A stretch of DNA of 21,598 nt, taken from positions 1 through 21,598 of IMG/VR virus record IMGVR_UViG_3300035698_002890; one strand, given 5' to 3'. The notes under the pieces are model-generated. The model ran no database searches, was not told the origin of the DNA, and saw nothing but the letters and a program-made list of their open reading frames with translations. A program made the translations under genes and the position numbers. The stretch comes from a virus. Below are positions 2,784 through 14,340 of the stretch, in pieces (position 1 is the stretch's first letter; each line of letters opens with the position of its first letter).

Positions 2784-4454
2784 GTGGCACTAAGGGATAG
2801 GATCGCGGCGCTGCTAGGCGTATCGACTTTTCAGCGGAGCAACGCGGCGCAACGATTTGCGCCGCCTGATTCCGTTGTAAAGCAAGTGCGCGACGCGTAC
2901 GGCGGACAACTATCTCCAACGCCAAGCACCCAGACGCGTTGGTATCCGCGCGATCTTGAGTCGGCGGAATACGCCGCGGACACTGGCGACCTGAGCTACG
3001 CGGCGCGACTCATGCGAAGCGCGCGCAAGGACGGCGTCTACGCGGGCGTGCTTTCGACGCGCACCGGTGGGCTTGTTCGCTTGCCGAAACGATTCCGCGG
3101 CGCGGAGCAAATCGTGAAGCCGCTCCAACAAGGCAACGATGAGACGCGCGGGATCTTCGACGAAATGTTCCCCGCGCAGGAGCTTGCGTTGCTTGCCGCG
3201 GATGGCGTCGAGCTTGGCGTTGGCGTCGCAGAGCTTGTGCCAGTGGTCGGGCGAGACTTCCCCGTCATGGTGCGGCTAGATCCTGAATTCCTTTCGTACC
3301 GGTGGAACGAGAATCAATGGTACTACCGGTCGATCGCGGGAATGCTTCCGATCACGCCCGGCGATGGACGGTGGATTCTGCATATGCCAGGCGGGCGCGT
3401 GTCGCCATGGCAACACGGACTCTGGCGTGCGATCGGTCGCGCGTACGTGCGCAAAGAACACGCGCTCATGCATGCCGACAACTGGGAGGCGAAGCTTGCG
3501 AATAGCGCGCGTGTTGCGTATGCACCGCAAGCGGCAAGCCAAGCACAAAAGGAATCATGGTTCCGCTCTGTCATGGCATGGGGCGTCAACTCAACCTTCG
3601 GATTGACGCCGGGGTACGAGGTAAAGCTACTCGAAAGCAACGGGCGAGGATACGAAGCGTTCCGACAAACGATCGAAGATCAGAATAATGAATTCGTGAT
3701 CGCGGTAGCGGGCCAGACGGTGACCACGGATGGCGGGACTGGATTCTCAAACCAAGATGTTCACAAGTCGATCCGCGCGGACTTGATCAAAGAAACGGCG
3801 GACGGCCTAGCGCACACGATCAACACGCAAGGTCTCCCGCAATGGGTGATCGACACGTTCGGCGAGAAAGCGTTGACGCCGGGCGCGAGCGTTGAATGGG
3901 ACGTAGCGCCGCCGCAAGATCGACGCGCGGAAGCTGACGCGCTGCAAGTCACCGCGCAAGCGATGGCGAGCTTAACGCAAAGCCTCGCAACGCACGGACT
4001 GAGGCTCGACGCTAAGGCGTTGGCGATCGGATTCGGCGTTCCGTTTGTCGACGTGGAAGCGGGAACGGACGCGCCGCTATTGTTTGACGTGTCGCTACAG
4101 CAAGCGATCGATCTCGCAACGGGTCGCGGGTTGCGCCCGACAGAAAACGCGGTGCGTTTGATTCTTGAGCGCGCGGGCGTCGCACTCGAAACGCAACCCG
4201 CGGGCGAAGAATCGCCGCGCCGACTTGAGCTTGCGCCCACCGATGTTGCCAAGTTTGTAAAAGTCGTTGAGGGTCGAGCATCGCAAGGGTTGCCGCCGTT
4301 TGGAGACTGGCGAGATCAACTCACCATCTTTGAGTTCGCGGCGCTCACGTCCGCGGCTGGCGAATCGAGCGTGGCGGAAGCGGAAGCGGAAGCGGACGCA
4401 GACGCAGCAATCGAAGTGGACAACGCAACGGAAGACGAGGCGGTCGCGGTATGA
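2784..4454 (+). CDS. Portal protein, DUF935 / Mu gp29-like
   Basis: The 556-residue portal forms the dodecameric ring at the head vertex through which DNA passes and to which terminase and tail dock. Diagnostic is the region at about 305-355, with AVAGQTVTTDGGTG followed by VHKSIRADLIKETAD and the INTQGLPQW segment, the conserved core of Mu gp29/DUF935 portals. The middle region (about 160-240) has the DPEFLSYRW and HMPGGRVSPWQHGLWR blocks expected of the stem/wing fold. The last 30 residues are an acidic Ala/Glu/Asp tail that probably faces the interior. Start is GTG. The stop overlaps the protease start (ATGA). A Mu F-like minor head gene, which usually follows this portal type, is absent here. 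Confidence 0.88.
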   Translation: MALRDRIAALLGVSTFQRSNAAQRFAPPDSVVKQVRDAYGGQLSPTPSTQTRWYPRDLESAEYAADTGDLSYAARLMRSARKDGVYAGVLSTRTGGLVRLPKRFRGAEQIVKPLQQGNDETRGIFDEMFPAQELALLAADGVELGVGVAELVPVVGRDFPVMVRLDPEFLSYRWNENQWYYRSIAGMLPITPGDGRWILHMPGGRVSPWQHGLWRAIGRAYVRKEHALMHADNWEAKLANSARVAYAPQAASQAQKESWFRSVMAWGVNSTFGLTPGYEVKLLESNGRGYEAFRQTIEDQNNEFVIAVAGQTVTTDGGTGFSNQDVHKSIRADLIKETADGLAHTINTQGLPQWVIDTFGEKALTPGASVEWDVAPPQDRRAEADALQVTAQAMASLTQSLATHGLRLDAKALAIGFGVPFVDVEAGTDAPLLFDVSLQQAIDLATGRGLRPTENAVRLILERAGVALETQPAGEESPRRLELAPTDVAKFVKVVEGRASQGLPPFGDWRDQLTIFEFAALTSAAGESSVAEAEAEADADAAIEVDNATEDEAVAV

Positions 4455-5917
4455 ACGAACGAACGCAGCAGCGCTTCGTGCCCCATGGTGCGCTTGCCAT
4501 TCATCCCAAGGCGTTCGGCGCATTGTTCGACGTAATCGGCGCAACGCCACCCACGCTTTCGGACGTGGGCGTGGCGGTCGTAAGCGTGCGTGGCCCGCTC
4601 ATGCATCACGCGGACTATTGTTTTGATTCGTACGAGGGCTTGAAGGCGCGCATGCGCGAAGCGTTGGCGCTCAACCCGCGCGCTATCTTGCTCGACATTG
4701 ACTCACCGGGCGGGCTCGTCTCTGGCGCGTTTGATACCGCGCGCGAGTTGCGCGCAATGTGCAACACGGCCAACGTTGAGCTACGCGCGCATGTCGAAGC
4801 GCAGGCAACGTCCGCGGCTTATGCGATGGCGAGCGCCGCTAGTTGGATCGGAGTTTCGCGCAGCGCTTCGATCGGATCGATCGGCGTCATTGATACGTTG
4901 ATCGACGCGACCGCGCAGAACGAAATGAACGGCGTCAAGGTTCAACTCGTCACGTCGGGCGCACGCAAGGCAGACGGCAACCCGGACGCTCCGTTGAACG
5001 CTGACGCGATCGCAGCCACACAAGAACGCGTCGAAAGTCTCGCGCGGATGTTCTTCGAGTTAGTCGTCGACCATGGATGGGGCGGCGATGTCGAAAGCGT
5101 CGCGGCGCTTGAAGCGGCGGTGCTCACGGGCGAGCAAGCGGTAGCGGCCGGGCTTGCGTCGGCGATCGCAACGCGACAACAATCTCTCGCACTCGACGCG
5201 CTCGCGCCCGATGCGGAAGCAACGGAAACAGGAACAGGAGAAACGCAAATGGCAACACCAATGGAAGACGCCGTCGCTTCGCTTCGAAAGATGGCGGAAG
5301 GCGACAACGAGGAAGACGCGAAGCGCGCGCGCGCTGCGCTCGCCTCGCTCGAAAGCGACGACGACGAGTCGGCGGAAGACGACGAGAAAGACGAGTCGGC
5401 GGAAGACGACAAGGAAGACGAGCCGGCAGAAGACGACGAGAAAGACGAGTCGGCGGAAGACGACAAGGAAGACGCAAAGGCAAGCGCCAGCGCGTTGCGC
5501 ATTGCAACGCAAGCGCTCGCCAAGGTCCATACAATGGAAGCGAACGCCGCCAAGGCGCGCGCAAGCGCAGAGCGCGCCGAGTTGATCGCATCGCGCGCCG
5601 ACTTCGGAGACGACTTGATCGCCGTCCTTTCATCGCCAAAGACACCGCTGGCAACCGTGCGTGAAATGTGCGCGAACCTTGCGAAGGGTCCGACTCGGAC
5701 CGGGCGCAGTGCAGCCGCCGCAATGGCGACTGGAACACGCGGAGCAACGCAAGGAGACGGATCGGCGTCGCGGCTTGCGCCTGAGCACAAGTCAGCGCTG
5801 GACTTGCAAATGGGACTCGTGAAGATGACAACCGAAACCGTCAGCGACTCTCACCGACTCACGTTCGGCGCGGCGCGGGCGATGACAGCGGCGGAAGCCG
5901 AGAAGGGAAAGCGATAA
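4451..5917 (+). CDS. Prohead protease (S49/SppA-like) fused to scaffold region
   Basis: The 488-residue protein has an N-terminal S49 serine protease domain (about residues 40-245) and a long acidic, helical C-terminal region. Signature blocks are LLDIDSPGGLVSGA (80-93), QATSAAYAMASAA with the predicted nucleophile S121, and SASIGSIGV (138-145). GARKADGNP carries the predicted general base K173, 52 residues after the serine as in SppA-type peptidases. Such enzymes cleave scaffold and other head proteins and then themselves during prohead maturation. The C-terminal part contains an acidic tandem repeat and a helical Ala/Lys/Glu region typical of scaffolds, and an internal start at 5249 probably makes that region separately. 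Start ATG overlaps the portal stop by four bases. Confidence 0.88.
   Translation: MNERTQQRFVPHGALAIHPKAFGALFDVIGATPPTLSDVGVAVVSVRGPLMHHADYCFDSYEGLKARMREALALNPRAILLDIDSPGGLVSGAFDTARELRAMCNTANVELRAHVEAQATSAAYAMASAASWIGVSRSASIGSIGVIDTLIDATAQNEMNGVKVQLVTSGARKADGNPDAPLNADAIAATQERVESLARMFFELVVDHGWGGDVESVAALEAAVLTGEQAVAAGLASAIATRQQSLALDALAPDAEATETGTGETQMATPMEDAVASLRKMAEGDNEEDAKRARAALASLESDDDESAEDDEKDESAEDDKEDEPAEDDEKDESAEDDKEDAKASASALRIATQALAKVHTMEANAAKARASAERAELIASRADFGDDLIAVLSSPKTPLATVREMCANLAKGPTRTGRSAAAAMATGTRGATQGDGSASRLAPEHKSALDLQMGLVKMTTETVSDSHRLTFGAARAMTAAEAEKGKR
5249..5917 (+). CDS. Nested scaffold protein from internal in-frame start
   Basis: An in-frame ATG at codon 267 of the protease gene is preceded by AGGAG at 5236-5240, eight bases upstream, one of the better ribosome binding sites in this window. 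Starting here gives a 222-residue protein that begins MATPMEDAV, just after the protease domain ends. It carries the acidic repeat and a long predicted alpha-helical segment (about 5490-5700). The layout mirrors lambda C/Nu3, where the scaffold is made from an internal start within the protease gene. The site and frame are seen directly; that it is used as scaffold is inference from that precedent. Confidence 0.65.
   Translation: MATPMEDAVASLRKMAEGDNEEDAKRARAALASLESDDDESAEDDEKDESAEDDKEDEPAEDDEKDESAEDDKEDAKASASALRIATQALAKVHTMEANAAKARASAERAELIASRADFGDDLIAVLSSPKTPLATVREMCANLAKGPTRTGRSAAAAMATGTRGATQGDGSASRLAPEHKSALDLQMGLVKMTTETVSDSHRLTFGAARAMTAAEAEKGKR
5363..5470 (+). repeat. Four tandem 27-bp repeats coding an acidic 9-mer
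   Basis: Four adjoining 27-base units (5363, 5390, 5417, 5444) encode DESAEDDEK, DESAEDDKE, DEPAEDDEK and DESAEDDKE, inside the scaffold part of the protease gene. Units alternate in a two-unit period (EK then KE endings), as expected from duplication of a 54-base pair of units. Copy number could vary between related phages by slippage or recombination without changing frame. Confidence 0.9.
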
Positions 5918-8981: not shown

Positions 8982-10445
8982 ATGTCGCAGCCAAACGTAC
9001 AAATCACTGAGCTTGACGGAGCGCTCGGAATCATACCAACGACGGCGGGTCGCTTGCTTTCGGTCGTTGGCGTTTCGTCCAGTGGTCCGATCGACACTCC
9101 CGCAACGTTTGCGCGGACGTCCGACTTGCGCGCATCGTTCGGCGACGGTCCAGCGGTTGAAGCCGCGGCGATCATGATAGAGCGATTTGGAAAGCCGGTC
9201 CAATTCACGCGCACCGGACAAACAACGGCCGGAAGTTCTCCAGCGGGCGACGTGGTCGTCCGCGTTGGAAGCGGAACAAGCGTGGTCATAGTAGACGACG
9301 CGGGCACCGCCCCATGGGATGATTTTGAGTTCTACTTTGGAGTCGTCGCCGGTGGAACGATCGGCGTTGACGGGATCACTTTCAAGTGGTCGCTGGACGG
9401 CGGGCGCACCAAGTCAGCGGTGACGGCGTTGGGCACGGATGCGCTTTTCATCTTTCCCGGATCGGGCGGAGTGCAGATCGATTTTTCGGCTGGCACTTTG
9501 CTAGCCGGCGAGACCGCAACCTTCCGCGGCGATGCTCCGAAGTGGAACACAACGGAGATCGGGACCGCGCTTGACGCAATCTTCGCAAGCACGGTCGCCT
9601 GGGAAAACGCGCTCATTGTTGGCGACCTTGCGGCGGCGGACATTGACACGATCGATCCGAAGTTCACCGCGGCGCAGACTCGCGGCAAGTACCGCGGATG
9701 GATCGGGCACACGCGCATGCCGTTGATCGGCGAAAGTGAAGCAACGTACAAGGCCGCGCTCGACGCGATCTTCGCCAGCAAGGCCACGGTCCACGGCGAG
9801 ATTTGCTCGGGCGCAGCGAAGACGATTTCCTCAGTAAGCGGGCGGCAGTATCGGCGTCCCAGCGGATACACGATCGGCGCACTTGAGCAAAGCGCGAGTG
9901 AGGAGATCAATATCGCGGACGTGAACCGCGGACCCGTTCCCGGCGTTTCGATTACGGACGCAAACGGAAATCCAGACGAGCACGACGAGTCGTTGAATCC
10001 CGGTCTGGACGATTCGCGCTTCACCGTGTTTCGTACGTGGGATGGGCTCCAAGGCGTGTACGTAAACCGCCCGCGCGTGTTTTCGGCGGCGGGATCTGAC
10101 TTCGACATTTTCCCGAAGCGGCGTGTGATCAACATCGCGCACGCGGTGCTGCGAAACTATTTCATCCGTCGCCTGAGCAAGCCGGTGCGAGTCGATGCCA
10201 ACACCGGATACATTCTGGAAACCGAAGCGCTCGAAATTGAAAGCGGCGCGCGCGCTGCAATGCGCGCTGCGTTGCTCGCAAAGCCAAAGGCAAGCGCGGT
10301 CCAATTCACCCTTTCGCGAACGGACAACCTACTCTCAACCAAGACGCTCACCGGCAACGGGCGCGTGATTCCTTTGGCCTACCCAGAGTTCATTGACTTG
10401 TCGGTAGGCTTCATGAATCCTGCGTTGCAGATCCAATCCGTCTAG
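8982..10445 (+). CDS. Contractile tail sheath protein (DUF2586/Mu gpL-like)
   Basis: The 487-residue protein forms the contractile outer tube that drives the inner tube through the cell envelope. The N-terminal part (about 1-75) carries the sheath-type strand-helix start, GRLLSVVGVSSSGP then ASFGDGPAVEAAAIMIERFG. The middle (about 80-180) is a beta-rich surface domain. The C-terminal third has the conserved sheath core: LDDSRFTVFRTWDGLQGVYV (about 341-360), SDFDIFPKRRVINIAHAVLR, then the long helix before VIPLAYPEFIDLSVGFMNP. Strong purine-rich leader GGAAGAAAGAAAAA before ATG. The gene sits directly ahead of the tube gene, as in other contractile phages. Confidence 0.9.
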   Translation: MSQPNVQITELDGALGIIPTTAGRLLSVVGVSSSGPIDTPATFARTSDLRASFGDGPAVEAAAIMIERFGKPVQFTRTGQTTAGSSPAGDVVVRVGSGTSVVIVDDAGTAPWDDFEFYFGVVAGGTIGVDGITFKWSLDGGRTKSAVTALGTDALFIFPGSGGVQIDFSAGTLLAGETATFRGDAPKWNTTEIGTALDAIFASTVAWENALIVGDLAAADIDTIDPKFTAAQTRGKYRGWIGHTRMPLIGESEATYKAALDAIFASKATVHGEICSGAAKTISSVSGRQYRRPSGYTIGALEQSASEEINIADVNRGPVPGVSITDANGNPDEHDESLNPGLDDSRFTVFRTWDGLQGVYVNRPRVFSAAGSDFDIFPKRRVINIAHAVLRNYFIRRLSKPVRVDANTGYILETEALEIESGARAAMRAALLAKPKASAVQFTLSRTDNLLSTKTLTGNGRVIPLAYPEFIDLSVGFMNPALQIQSV

Positions 10446-10485: not shown

Positions 10486-10959
10486 ATGGCAGACGAAATC
10501 AGAGTCAACGGCAACGTGCTCAGCTGGGGATCGATCGAAGTCAAGATCAACGGCGAGCGCTACTATGGGATCACGTCGATCGGCTACGCCGACTCGCGCG
10601 AGCGCGTCAAGGCGTACGGCATGGGGCGCGCGCAAGCTCCGCGCGGAAGGTCGCGCGGGAAATACAACGTCGAGCCCGTGACGATCTCGGGGTACAAAAC
10701 TTCGATCCAAGAGATCCGACAAGCGCTCGCAGACGCGGGCGACGGCGAATCGTACGGGGATACAGTTTTCGAAATCGTGGTCCAGTATTTCGAGTTGGAC
10801 GAAACGCCGATCACGGTTGAGCTTGAGCGTTGCGTGTGGGGAAAGAACACAACGTCCGAAGAAGAGAATCCGGACCCGTTGAAAGAAGACGTCGAACTGG
10901 ATTGCATGCTGATTCGTCGCAACGGCCTAACGTTGTTTGACGCTTCGGAAGGCGCATAA
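10486..10959 (+). CDS. Tail tube protein
   Basis: A 157-residue beta-rich protein next to the sheath gene, as for the inner tube of contractile tails. It begins MADEIRVNGNVLSWGSIEVKI and continues with YYGITSIGYADSRERVKAYG, which fits the first strands and loop of the tube fold. A Gly/Arg-rich loop (about 45-60) and the pairs VFEIVVQYFE and ITVELERCVWGK follow. It ends in an acidic stretch and DCMLIRRNGLTLF. An AGGA site and an A-rich leader precede the ATG. The call rests on position, size and strand pattern. Confidence 0.78.
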   Translation: MADEIRVNGNVLSWGSIEVKINGERYYGITSIGYADSRERVKAYGMGRAQAPRGRSRGKYNVEPVTISGYKTSIQEIRQALADAGDGESYGDTVFEIVVQYFELDETPITVELERCVWGKNTTSEEENPDPLKEDVELDCMLIRRNGLTLFDASEGA

Positions 10960-10962
10960 CGC

Positions 10963-11877
10963 GTGACGTTTGAAGGCACCAAAGAATGGGAGGCGGCGCT
11001 CGCGCGCGTGATCTTGGAAGCAAGGCGCGCCGCGAGCATTTTCCAGCCGCTTTCCGTTTCGATGCCTCAAACGCTGGACGAATCGCGGATCGATTGCGCC
11101 GAGTCGTTGGATTGGATGGATCGTTTGCCAGCGTCAAGCGCTGGCGGGATCGTGTCAGATCCGCCGTACTCATCGGGCGGAGCGTTCCGCGCGGATCGAT
11201 GCAACTCAAACGCGACCGCGAAGTATATCAACAAAGAACAACAAGCAAACTACGCGGAAGACTTCGCGGGCGACTCAAGAGATCAACGCGCGTGGGCGGT
11301 ATGGGTTGAGCTTGTTCTGCGCAAAGCCTTGCGCGTCGTCGAGCCTGGCGGAGTCTGCGCTATCTCCGTCGACTGGCGGCAACTGGCAACGCTCACGGAT
11401 GCTATGCAAGTCGCCGGCTGGATTCTTCGAGGCATCGTTCCATGGGACAAGACCCAAGCGTGTCGGCAGGTCCTAGGCCGCTTCCGCGCGCAGTGCGAGT
11501 ACTGGGTCTGGGGTTCGAACGGTCGCCTGGGACTTGACCGCAACGCGCCCGTCCTTCCGGGTTGTTTGCGCTTCCCGGTATCGCGCGACAAAACACACCC
11601 GACACAAAAGCCGGTCGAAATGTTGCGCATGGTTTCGCGCATCGTTGAACGCGGGCGACCGATCATCGATCCGTTTAGCGGGTCGGGCGCGCACGGCGTC
11701 GCGGCAGTGCTAGAAGGCCATCCGTTTCTCGGTTGTGAAATGGTTCCGCACTACGCCGAAAGCGGGTCGCGTTGGCTTGCTGAAACGATCGAGCACGCGT
11801 CAAACAACCCGCCATTGTTTGACGATCTAAACGACTCCGGATCCGAGCAAATGGGGCTGGGAACCGATGAAGAATGA
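10963..11877 (+). CDS. Beta-class DNA adenine-type methyltransferase
   Basis: A 304-residue SAM-dependent methyltransferase. DPPY (66-69, motif IV) comes before DPFSGSG (236-242, motif I), so motif order is IV...I, the beta class. HPTQKPVEML (212-221) precedes motif I as in enzymes of the HinfI/CcrM kind. DPPY favours N6-adenine. The central region (about 80-210), with Cys and Trp, is probably the target recognition part. The first 33 residues are outside the usual fold, and M34 is an alternative start, although I see no Shine-Dalgarno before it. A DNA-modifying gene among tail genes is a moron-like insertion. Likely use is modifying phage DNA against host restriction; no endonuclease partner is visible. 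The target site cannot be read from sequence. Confidence 0.85.
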   Translation: MTFEGTKEWEAALARVILEARRAASIFQPLSVSMPQTLDESRIDCAESLDWMDRLPASSAGGIVSDPPYSSGGAFRADRCNSNATAKYINKEQQANYAEDFAGDSRDQRAWAVWVELVLRKALRVVEPGGVCAISVDWRQLATLTDAMQVAGWILRGIVPWDKTQACRQVLGRFRAQCEYWVWGSNGRLGLDRNAPVLPGCLRFPVSRDKTHPTQKPVEMLRMVSRIVERGRPIIDPFSGSGAHGVAAVLEGHPFLGCEMVPHYAESGSRWLAETIEHASNNPPLFDDLNDSGSEQMGLGTDEE

Positions 11878-12347
11878 ACCATAAGGGGCAAGCAATGGAC
11901 GAAACAAACGCAGCGATGACGGACCTAGACACGCGACTTGCGAAAGCGCGCGAGCGAACACGCGCCGCGGAAGCGAAGCGCGCGCAAGCGGAAGAAAAAA
12001 GCGCAGGCGCCCGCGCAGTTGAGGCGGCGGAAATCGAAGCCGACGACGCGGAAGCGATCGCGCAAGCGGAAGACGATCACGGAGCGCATAGGATCGCCAT
12101 CGTACGCACCGCGATTGGTTGCGTGATCGTCAAGCGACCGCACCCGGCAGTCTACAAACGCTTCCGCGACCGCGGCGAAGCAAAGACCGCTGACCTTGAC
12201 GCGCTCGTGCGGAAGTCGCTGGTCTATCCGGACGCGCAACGCTTCGATCGCATGATCGAAGAGTTGCCGGCAACGCTCGACCACGCGGCAAACAAAGTGG
12301 TTGAGCTTGCAGGATTTAAAGCAAAGGAGGTCGCGGGAAAATCTTAG
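11874..12347 (+). CDS. Tail assembly chaperone, unshifted (G-like) product
   Basis: A 157-residue protein between the tube and tape measure genes, the slot of tail assembly chaperones. The first half is a charged Ala/Glu/Lys/Arg helix. The second half has a compact domain with RPHPAVYKRFRDRG (about 87-100), SLVYPDAQRF and IEELPATLDHAANKVVELAG, a pattern common to Mu-type chaperones. The start is either the ATG at 11874 (ATGA overlap, like many junctions here) or 11895, which has AAGGGG six bases upstream. The gene ends with an AAAGGAGG, a GGGAAAA and a TAG, suggesting that some ribosomes shift into the following frame (see frameshift entry). It wraps the tape measure during assembly and is not expected in the virion. 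Confidence 0.78.
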   Translation: MNHKGQAMDETNAAMTDLDTRLAKARERTRAAEAKRAQAEEKSAGARAVEAAEIEADDAEAIAQAEDDHGAHRIAIVRTAIGCVIVKRPHPAVYKRFRDRGEAKTADLDALVRKSLVYPDAQRFDRMIEELPATLDHAANKVVELAGFKAKEVAGKS

Positions 12348-12529
12348 CGCTGCGCGGGGAAGCGCGCCGCGACTTTGGAGTCGGCGCCGCTTGCTTGCTC
12401 GCAGCACTCGGGAACGAAGACCAGGAAACGGACGCGGAGTTGATCCGCGCACAAGTCGGCGCGATGATGCTTGCGGAAGTCATTCACGACGTGAAGCAAA
12501 TCAAAAGGCTGCTTTCGCCAGCTAAATAG
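11874..12529 (+). CDS. Tail assembly chaperone -1 frameshift (GT-like) fusion
   Basis: If ribosomes slip back one base at GGGAAAA (12335-12341), the frame stays open from 12341 to a TAG at 12527-12529. This adds 62 residues starting ILALRGEARRDFG and ending IKRLLSPAK, for a fusion of about 218 residues. The added part is a sensible helical domain (FGVGAACLLAALG, then GAMMLAEVIHDVK), and the region has no good start codon or ribosome site of its own. The fused form would resemble lambda gpGT, in which the T part contacts the tube and the G part coats the tape measure. The join ends eight bases before the tape measure start. The slip itself is inference, though the signal is strong. Confidence 0.75.
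12323..12370 (+). promoter_or_regulatory. -1 programmed frameshift signal
   Basis: In order, the sequence shows AAAGGAGG (12323-12330), a four-base gap, and the slippery heptamer G GGA AAA (12335-12341) in the correct reading register. A five-base spacer and then a hairpin follow. The stem 12347-12355 pairs with 12362-12370 (seven Watson-Crick pairs, one G-T, one C-C mismatch) around GGGGAA. The unshifted stop TAG at 12345-12347 lies right before the stem. This matches the X XXY YYZ rule and typical spacer length of -1 frameshift sites. The Shine-Dalgarno-like stretch lies closer to the heptamer than in dnaX, so its stimulatory role is uncertain. Confidence 0.75.
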
Positions 12530-12537
12530 GGTTCAAA

Positions 12538-14340
12538 GTGTCAGACGAAAGATCCACATTCGCAATTGCGCTGAAAGACGAAACGAGCGGCGCGGCAAAA
12601 CAAGCTGCGTCCGCGCTCGTTACTCTGCGCTCTGCAATCGAGGCTGACACCAGATCGCTTTCGCAACTTCAAAAGGCCATGCGCCAAATGAAGAAAGCCG
12701 GACTTCAAAGCGGCGACGCGTTCAAAGAACTGAGCAACCAATCGAAGGCATTGGAAGCGAAGATCGGAACGAACCAGGAAGCATTCGTAAAACTCGGAGG
12801 CACGTTTGAAAAGACCGCGCCGAAAGCGGCGAGTTTGTTTGAATCACTTTCAAGCGCGAAGGGTCCATTAGGGGCGCTGACTGCGGGAATGGGCAAGCTC
12901 GGGTCCGCGCTCATGTCGCCGATCGCGCTGGCCGCTGGGTTGGCAATCGGAGTGCTCGCGCTTGTCGCCGGACTGGTCAAGCTCGCAACGGCGGCGCTAG
13001 GTGCGGGCGTTGCGCTCGCAAAGTTTGCGGTTGGCGCGAGCGACGCGCGACGATCGGAAGGGTTGCAGATCGAAGGACTGAATAGTCTACATCGCGCGTA
13101 CGGTCGACAGACGGCAAGCGTCAACGACTACCAGTCGGCGATCGATCGCGCGAGCGATTCAACGAACGTTGGGCGCGACACGTTGCGAGGCTACGCGCAA
13201 TCGCTCACGCGCGCGGGATTGCGAGGCGATGCGCTGACGGAAGCCGTCGAAGCGATGGGCCTTGCGGCGATGGTGCAAGGCGAGCGCGGCGCAAATCGTT
13301 TTCGTGCGCTTGCCGTCAACGCTCGACTCGCGGGCGGCAACGTGTCGGACCTTGCGGCGCGGTACCGAGACGAGCTTGGCCCGATGGCACGACGCGTCAT
13401 GCTCTCGCTCGAAAATCAAACCACGAAGCTCAACAAAAACTTGGCGCGTTTGTTCGGCGGACTGAACACGGAGCCGATGCTCTCGGCGCTCGATTCGGTG
13501 GGCTCGCTTTTGTCGCAGTCGACCGCAAGCGGCCGCGCGCTCAAGTCGTTGTTCGAGGCGTTGTTTCAGCCGATCATCGACAAGGTTGGCGAAGCGTCGC
13601 CAATGATTACAAACTTCTTCAAGGGAATGGTGATCGGCGCACTCATCGCTGGGATTGGAATCATTCGTTTGCGCAACCAACTGGAGGCTGTGTTCCCGGG
13701 ATTCCTTGGCGACGCAAACTCCGCCAAGATTGCGGTCTATGCGGGCATCGCTGCGTTTGCCATCTTCGTTGGCATACTCGCGCTCGCCACGGTTGCAGCG
13801 CTCGCGCTTGCGGTCGCGATGTTTTTGGTGGCGCTTCCGTTCCTGCTAGTGATCGGTCTCATCGCATTGTTAGCGGTTGGAATCATTCTAGCAATCGAAG
13901 CGATCGGCGACGCGTTCGAAGCGGTGTCCGATTTTGTGGGCGACATGATCGACGGGATCGTGAACGCGATCACGGGCGGCACTCCGCGCGTGGAAGCTGC
14001 GTTCAACCAACTGGCGGAGAAGGGCGCAAAGGGCTTTGCCGATTCGTTGGGCATCGCGTCGCCGTCGAAAGTGTTCGCCTCGTTCGGCCGCAACATTGTG
14101 GACGGCGCGGTGCTTGGAATCGAAACCAACGCGCCGCAACTCGAAAGCGCAACGGGCGGTCTGGTTGAGGAACCGATGGGAGGCGGGCGCGCGTCGAGCA
14201 CTTCGATTTCCATTGGTGACGTGAGCGTGAGCGCCGGCGAGTCGAGCGACCCGCGCGCGATGGCGATCGCATTTCGCGATGAGTTGGCGTCGGTGCTTGA
14301 AGGCGTGAACATTGAACTAGGAGCGGCGCGTGGCGTTTGA
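12538..14340 (+). CDS. Tail tape measure protein
   Basis: The 600-residue protein sets tail length and is ejected with the DNA. It begins with a helical, coiled-coil-prone region (about 15-105). Strongly hydrophobic segments follow at about 125-165, 360-378 and 399-457, which could enter the host membrane. The C-terminal motif LGIASPSKVFASFGRNIVDG (about 504-523) is a hallmark of tape measure proteins. It lies directly after the chaperone gene, as usual. At 600 residues it predicts a fairly short tail (of the order of 90 nm at about 1.5 angstrom per residue; rough rule). GTG start with a weak AGGG upstream. Confidence 0.9.
   Translation: MSDERSTFAIALKDETSGAAKQAASALVTLRSAIEADTRSLSQLQKAMRQMKKAGLQSGDAFKELSNQSKALEAKIGTNQEAFVKLGGTFEKTAPKAASLFESLSSAKGPLGALTAGMGKLGSALMSPIALAAGLAIGVLALVAGLVKLATAALGAGVALAKFAVGASDARRSEGLQIEGLNSLHRAYGRQTASVNDYQSAIDRASDSTNVGRDTLRGYAQSLTRAGLRGDALTEAVEAMGLAAMVQGERGANRFRALAVNARLAGGNVSDLAARYRDELGPMARRVMLSLENQTTKLNKNLARLFGGLNTEPMLSALDSVGSLLSQSTASGRALKSLFEALFQPIIDKVGEASPMITNFFKGMVIGALIAGIGIIRLRNQLEAVFPGFLGDANSAKIAVYAGIAAFAIFVGILALATVAALALAVAMFLVALPFLLVIGLIALLAVGIILAIEAIGDAFEAVSDFVGDMIDGIVNAITGGTPRVEAAFNQLAEKGAKGFADSLGIASPSKVFASFGRNIVDGAVLGIETNAPQLESATGGLVEEPMGGGRASSTSISIGDVSVSAGESSDPRAMAIAFRDELASVLEGVNIELGAARGV

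Follow-up and report, generated by a model that had tools for sequence, protein, structure and literature searches.

Tail assembly chaperone genes expressed through frameshifting are well known, with lambda G/GT and the −2 shift of Mu as familiar cases (PMC5009743). The lambda arrangement is widely conserved in long-tailed phages, and different tailed phages use −1, −2 or +1 shifts (reviewed in PMC5009743); a paper on the Mu-like phage KS10 already cites a −1 shift as the general rule, with −2 in Mu (PMC2628397). In Burkholderia phage KL1, a GGGAAAC slip site directly before the 0-frame stop has been predicted for gp18/gp19 (PMC3483164), an arrangement close to the one described here, although KL1 is a siphovirus and has an additional tail gene before the tape measure. 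Stimulation of −1 sites by Shine-Dalgarno (SD) sequences and stems, together with rules for their shiftiness, has been described in E. coli (PMC4066793).

The locus described here very probably yields a short and an extended tail chaperone by a programmed −1 frameshift of the lambda G/GT type. It lies in what we call the window, the whole 21.6 kb stretch of viral DNA that was analysed. As in lambda (Xu, Hendrix and Duda 2004, as summarised in PMC5009743), the chaperone gene precedes the tape measure gene, and a −1 slip near its end would give a short and a C-terminally extended product. The two differ in that no sequence similarity was detected between lambda and window proteins, the 0-frame stop of the window is placed one codon after the heptamer, and the tail of the window is contractile. 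The lambda heptamer is GGGAAAG, and that of the window is GGGAAAA. With Mu the window shares a Mu-like structural module and the position of the gene, but its shift would be −1 instead of −2; among named tail assembly chaperone (TAC) family profiles, Phage_TAC_7 is matched marginally (E 0.081) by 1 of 48 relatives, and none is matched by the window. An earlier note on this DNA had pointed to a −1 heptamer in a Mu-like tail as something out of the ordinary. The combination is as it described, but it is not unusual, since −1, −2 and +1 shifts have all been published (PMC5009743).

Gene order, reading frames and predicted products

The window is a virus record with a Mu-like head and a contractile tail. 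Matches in the head module were to the Mu portal (Portal_Mu), an S49 protease, a Mu-like gpT and Mu Gp36, and the tail genes recognised were a DUF2586 sheath, baseplate J and a tape measure. Genes are ordered sheath, tube, methylase, chaperone, tape measure, and relatives are alike apart from the methylase. The chaperone gene stands between tail tube and tape measure, as in the lambda G/GT type. The relevant features are:

8982–10445, + strand, tail sheath (DUF2586), used as bait for relatives
10486–10959, + strand, tail tube protein, assigned from position and a weak PHROG tail-protein match
11874–12347, + strand, 0-frame tail-assembly chaperone ORF (short product, G-like), stop TAG at 12345–12347
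12335–12341, + strand, slippery heptamer G GGA AAA
12342–12529, + strand, −1 frame extension (T-like), predicted three-helix domain, stop TAG at 12527–12529
12345–12347, + strand, 0-frame stop TAG, one codon after the heptamer
12538–14340, + strand, tape measure protein, start GTG at 12538

A DNA methyltransferase gene (N6_N4_Mtase) is found between tube and chaperone in the window (10963–11877) and in one relative, L002 (3851–4741). In most relatives the gap between sheath and chaperone is about 500 nt, space for the tube gene only; L040 has additional sequence there too. The S49 protease gene (4451–5917) contains a tandem 27/54-base repeat at 5363–5474 of the window, which encodes an acidic stretch.

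The frames and slip site are as the earlier note had read them. The chaperone gene ends GTC GCG GGA AAA TCT TAG, with GGGAAAA in the slipping register (0-frame codons GGA at 12336–12338 and AAA at 12339–12341) and a spacer of five bases after it (12342–12346). The −1 stop-to-stop frame spans 12320–12529 and is open to the TAG at 12527–12529, ending 8 nt before the tape-measure GTG. It has no start of its own, ATG, GTG and TTG all being absent between the upstream stop and the slip site; the TTGs within the extension, at 12395 and 12440, come too late for the whole domain. The genes of the window contain 13 in-register X_XXY_YYZ sites, only one of which is GGGAAAA. The true chaperone start is likely the in-frame ATG at 11895, which agrees with the start of the L002 homologue.

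From these features we infer that slipping occurs, along with its rate and the roles of both products. Most ribosomes would terminate at the TAG at 12345 and release the short chaperone (G). A minority would slip back one base on G GGA AAA, with tRNA-Gly and tRNA-Lys re-pairing with GGG and AAA, and would read on to the TAG at 12527 to give the chaperone with a C-terminal three-helix domain (G-T). An SD-like sequence upstream, a helix that begins about 5 nt downstream of the heptamer and the stop codon close ahead would probably aid slipping. Roles carried over from lambda would have G coat the tape measure and T recruit tail-tube subunits.

Structures were predicted from alignments that left out the row for Myxococcus phage Mx4. 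The model of the 0-frame protein (pLDDT 94.6) has its best PDB matches in 3fgx (Z 9.6, uncharacterised) and YqbN 3klu (Z 6.0), and it matches the HK97 tail assembly chaperone 2ob9 with Z 4.9; some weak viral matches are annotated as tail assembly chaperones. The predicted fold thus resembles that of tail chaperones with moderate Z values, and the gene position agrees. The extension had been called a plausible helical domain, and when predicted alone it gave three helices with pLDDT 95.8; a PDB fold search with it returned no meaningful match. When the window is compared with six relatives, most changes in the extension are at third positions of the −1 frame, and the region is much less alike when read in either of the other frames. 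By this pattern of substitution, the −1 frame extension is under purifying selection.

The frame of the extension among relatives

Scans of viral contigs based on the chaperone recovered only L002, and the sheath was therefore taken as bait, so that the loci were not picked for a frameshift. The sheath yielded 80 viral contigs and 14 genome contigs, and Mx4, MMP17 and Riverbug completed the set, in which metagenomic contigs make up the majority of relatives. Other searches returned little. PHROGs and Pfam scans of the window's own chaperone and extension gave no match at E 0.001, and matches across the whole family (DUF6848, PHROGs 5128 and 20303) were confined to part of its members. Against isolate phages, tblastn gave two marginal Meiothermus matches for the chaperone and none for the extension, and an alignment built from five diverse chaperones diverged too much to serve as a query.

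Iterative profile searches of stop-to-stop frames identified 84 chaperone ORFs and 69 extension ORFs. Both parts are present in 69 loci, counting the window; 62 of these have the extension in the −1 frame and 7 have it in the +1/−2 frame. Grouping the 62 at 80% identity gave 48 clusters. Homologues with a broken downstream frame would have counted against the earlier proposal, and none of the 69 loci has a broken extension, the 7 exceptions carrying it in the other shifted frame. As the window is a single metagenome record, one might suspect a decayed gene or an assembly error that broke the frame by accident, but the identical break recurs at the same place in 62 loci from 48 clusters, with selection on both sides, and we consider this explanation extremely improbable.

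The third frame is also open in the window (a 74-codon ORF at 12301–12525), and Mu itself uses −2 (PMC5009743), both of which would suit a Mu-like −2 (or +1) shift into that frame. However, conservation there reaches 13–23 of 59 residues as against 36–42 of 60 in the −1 frame, stops close the frame in 40 of the 62 loci, and it is the −1 frame that encodes the homologous extension, not the frame a Mu-type shift would reach. Such a shift at this locus is hardly credible, and the −1 reading is preferred.

Where the extension profile found no match and the contig was long enough, an alternative frame was open also: a −1 frame with A AAA AAC in L076, L077, L079 and L080, a −1 frame in L086, L090–L092, L095 and L098, and a +1 frame in the Meiothermus loci L087–L089. 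The second group is Bacillota-type, and several of its members carry a T-run (T TTT TTN) some 18 nt upstream of the stop of the chaperone gene. Related tails with a homologous extension in the +1/−2 frame (L004, L005, L081–L085, and also L087–L089) include Thermus and Meiothermus phages. Several of these have in common a TTT codon of the 0 frame close to the join with a C after it, suggesting a +1 slip from UUU to UUC; the CAAAAAAT run in L087–L089 could permit −2. It seems, then, that homologous chaperones shift in opposite directions.

Myxococcus phage Mx4 (OK085710; L003) has a homologous sheath (31%), chaperone and extension, the latter two at a −1 offset with A AAA AAA. They are annotated as two hypothetical proteins, p57 and p58, and the genome announcement is silent on frameshifting (PMC8530038). 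It is likely that p57/p58 (L003 13886–14433) is one frameshifted gene.

Slip site, adjacent stop and flanking elements

Comparison of the clusters documents the reading frames, the slip site and its conservation, and selection on the extension and on cis elements. GGGAAAA is kept in 33 of 48 clusters; 5 have AAAAAAA, one has GGGAAAG, one has AAAAAAG, and 8 lack a full heptamer. Family genes use GGA for 7% of their glycines and AAA for 18% of their lysines, and with this usage the joint probability of xxG GGA AAA comes to about 0.0055 per Gly-Lys pair. Among the 35 clusters ending in Gly-Lys, the exact GGGAAAA occurs in 33. By this codon-usage measure the slip site is not due to chance. An alternative is that RNA polymerase, and not the ribosome, slips on the A-run, and three loci (L002, L003 and L074) do have seven or eight consecutive A. 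The window and most relatives have just four A after GGG, though, and four A is too short for efficient polymerase slippage; conservation of the GGG part would not be expected either. Transcriptional slippage is accordingly a very faint prospect beside slipping by the ribosome.

The 0-frame stop lies at most two codons from the slip site throughout the family, mostly directly after it. In 41 clusters the −1-frame codon after the re-read AAA is Ile, and 33 of these 41 use ATA, which accounts for 4% elsewhere (binomial tail 3e-39). The remaining eight use ATC, and there the next codon always ends in TA, which places a 0-frame stop zero or one codon after the slip codon. Based on the ATA excess and the ATC/TA pattern, the family is under selection to keep a stop beside the slip site.

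Stops are found beside other −1 sites, such as those of Rous sarcoma virus and barley yellow dwarf virus (PMC4373837). In bacterial experiments cited by that paper, frameshifting was lowered by the release factor that reads a stop in this position, from which it follows that the stop can occupy the A site before the slip (PMC4373837). All 8 heptamer-less clusters retain A_AAA, 7 of them directly before TAA or TAG (L035, L036, L049, L051, L058, L060 and L064, with the −1 extension conserved); by itself, A_AAA has been described as weak in E. coli (PMC4066793). A tentative and rather doubtful possibility is that slipping takes place when the stop has already entered the A site; re-pairing on A_AAA would then be required of the P-site tRNA-Lys alone. 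The pattern of stops in the family is a mere hint of this.

Three further features flank the site:

12323–12331, + strand, Shine-Dalgarno-like AAAGGAGGT, four bases before the heptamer, likely stimulator
12346–12354, + strand, 5′ arm of the downstream helix, with one mismatch (12348/12406)
12400–12408, + strand, 3′ arm of the downstream helix, pairing with 12346–12354

Pairing with the anti-SD upstream of the slip site averages −8.3 kcal/mol over the 48 clusters as against −6.9 kcal/mol in synonymous recodings, a level reached by none of 200 null sets. The excess is confined to the slip-site position (z −4.4 adjacent, −2.6 at 9 nt) and was absent at all positions tested further upstream. The match of the window alone has p = 0.11, and the element is not present in every family member. 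SD-like sequence beyond coding need, as in the IS911/dnaX type, is thus found at family level, and it probably stimulates slipping.

The same sequence could be read as the ribosome binding site of a separate protein, with ribosomes reinitiating past the stop of the chaperone, possibly on a rare ATA or ATC, to make the extension from its own start: it lies about 10 nt before an ATC at 12341–12343 in the −1 frame, and many relatives have ATA at that place. Yet no ATG, GTG or TTG is conserved near the join, the ATA is accounted for by the requirement for a 0-frame TAA or TAG, and reinitiation needs no GGGAAAA, which is held far beyond codon chance. We judge an independent start very unlikely, and frameshifting remains our reading of the element.

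Downstream, the local GC hairpin proposed in the earlier note did not hold up, being no stabler than chance (z = −0.15 versus dinucleotide shuffles of the 59 nt downstream; z between −2 and +0.5 for other window sizes). At family level, 70-nt windows starting 0–7 nt after the slip codon fold with mean z of −1.2 to −1.6, and those starting elsewhere with z between −0.8 and +0.25. Against recodings preserving the −1 protein, z was −6.1 for folding and −8.1 for a long-range duplex. The duplex region was picked after inspecting the sequences, and for this reason all helix positions were scanned; the best helix begins 5 nt past the slip codon, its partner lying 60 nt beyond, and it exceeds the best of 40 null sets (0.68 versus 0.637, synonymous null). 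Covariation in the helix counts above shuffled and slid controls in the alignment, with arms such as GAGCTGAG/CTCAGCTC in L017 and CGCTGTTAG/CTAACAGCG in L058 and L060. The helix is present in about half of the family, and RNAalifold over 46 sequences gave no consensus structure. The minimum-energy fold of the window's own 70 nt includes the helix core, and its downstream structure is not clearly stabler than its shuffles. As stimulators, the SD-like element and the longer-range helix, both supported by synonymous-codon tests across the family, are a better description than the small GC hairpin.

In having an upstream SD-like sequence, a slippery heptamer and a downstream stem, the locus is like IS911/dnaX-type sites (PMC4066793). 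A stem about 5–8 nt after the motif, as in that type, is found at family level, starting 4–5 nt after the slip codon. The window differs in that its SD-like element ends just four bases before the heptamer, and in gene function. This SD spacing is shorter than in dnaX.

Place among tail-chaperone frameshifts

The central proposal of the earlier note, a programmed −1 shift in the chaperone gene, is sustained by the conserved slip site, the selected −1 frame, the chaperone-like fold and the synteny of tube, chaperone and tape measure. Judged on comparative sequence data, the frameshift of the window is genuine but of the ordinary lambda G/GT type. The diversity of −1, −2 and +1 shifts in tailed phages and the occurrence of stops after slip sites are already published; what is new is the description at family level and the set of members that have just A_AAA and a stop. 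The known tail-chaperone frameshifts thereby gain a large group of contractile-tailed phages, most of it unannotated. The second product will be split or overlooked by gene finders, as with the two hypothetical proteins of Mx4. The diversity of 48 clusters is sufficient for separating cis elements statistically, and the A_AAA-plus-stop members provide a natural series on the ribosomal step of the slip. If slipping does occur with the stop in the A site, it would account both for the retention of a stop beside the slip site and for the loss, in some lineages, of the first half of the heptamer, where just A_AAA is kept directly before TAA or TAG.
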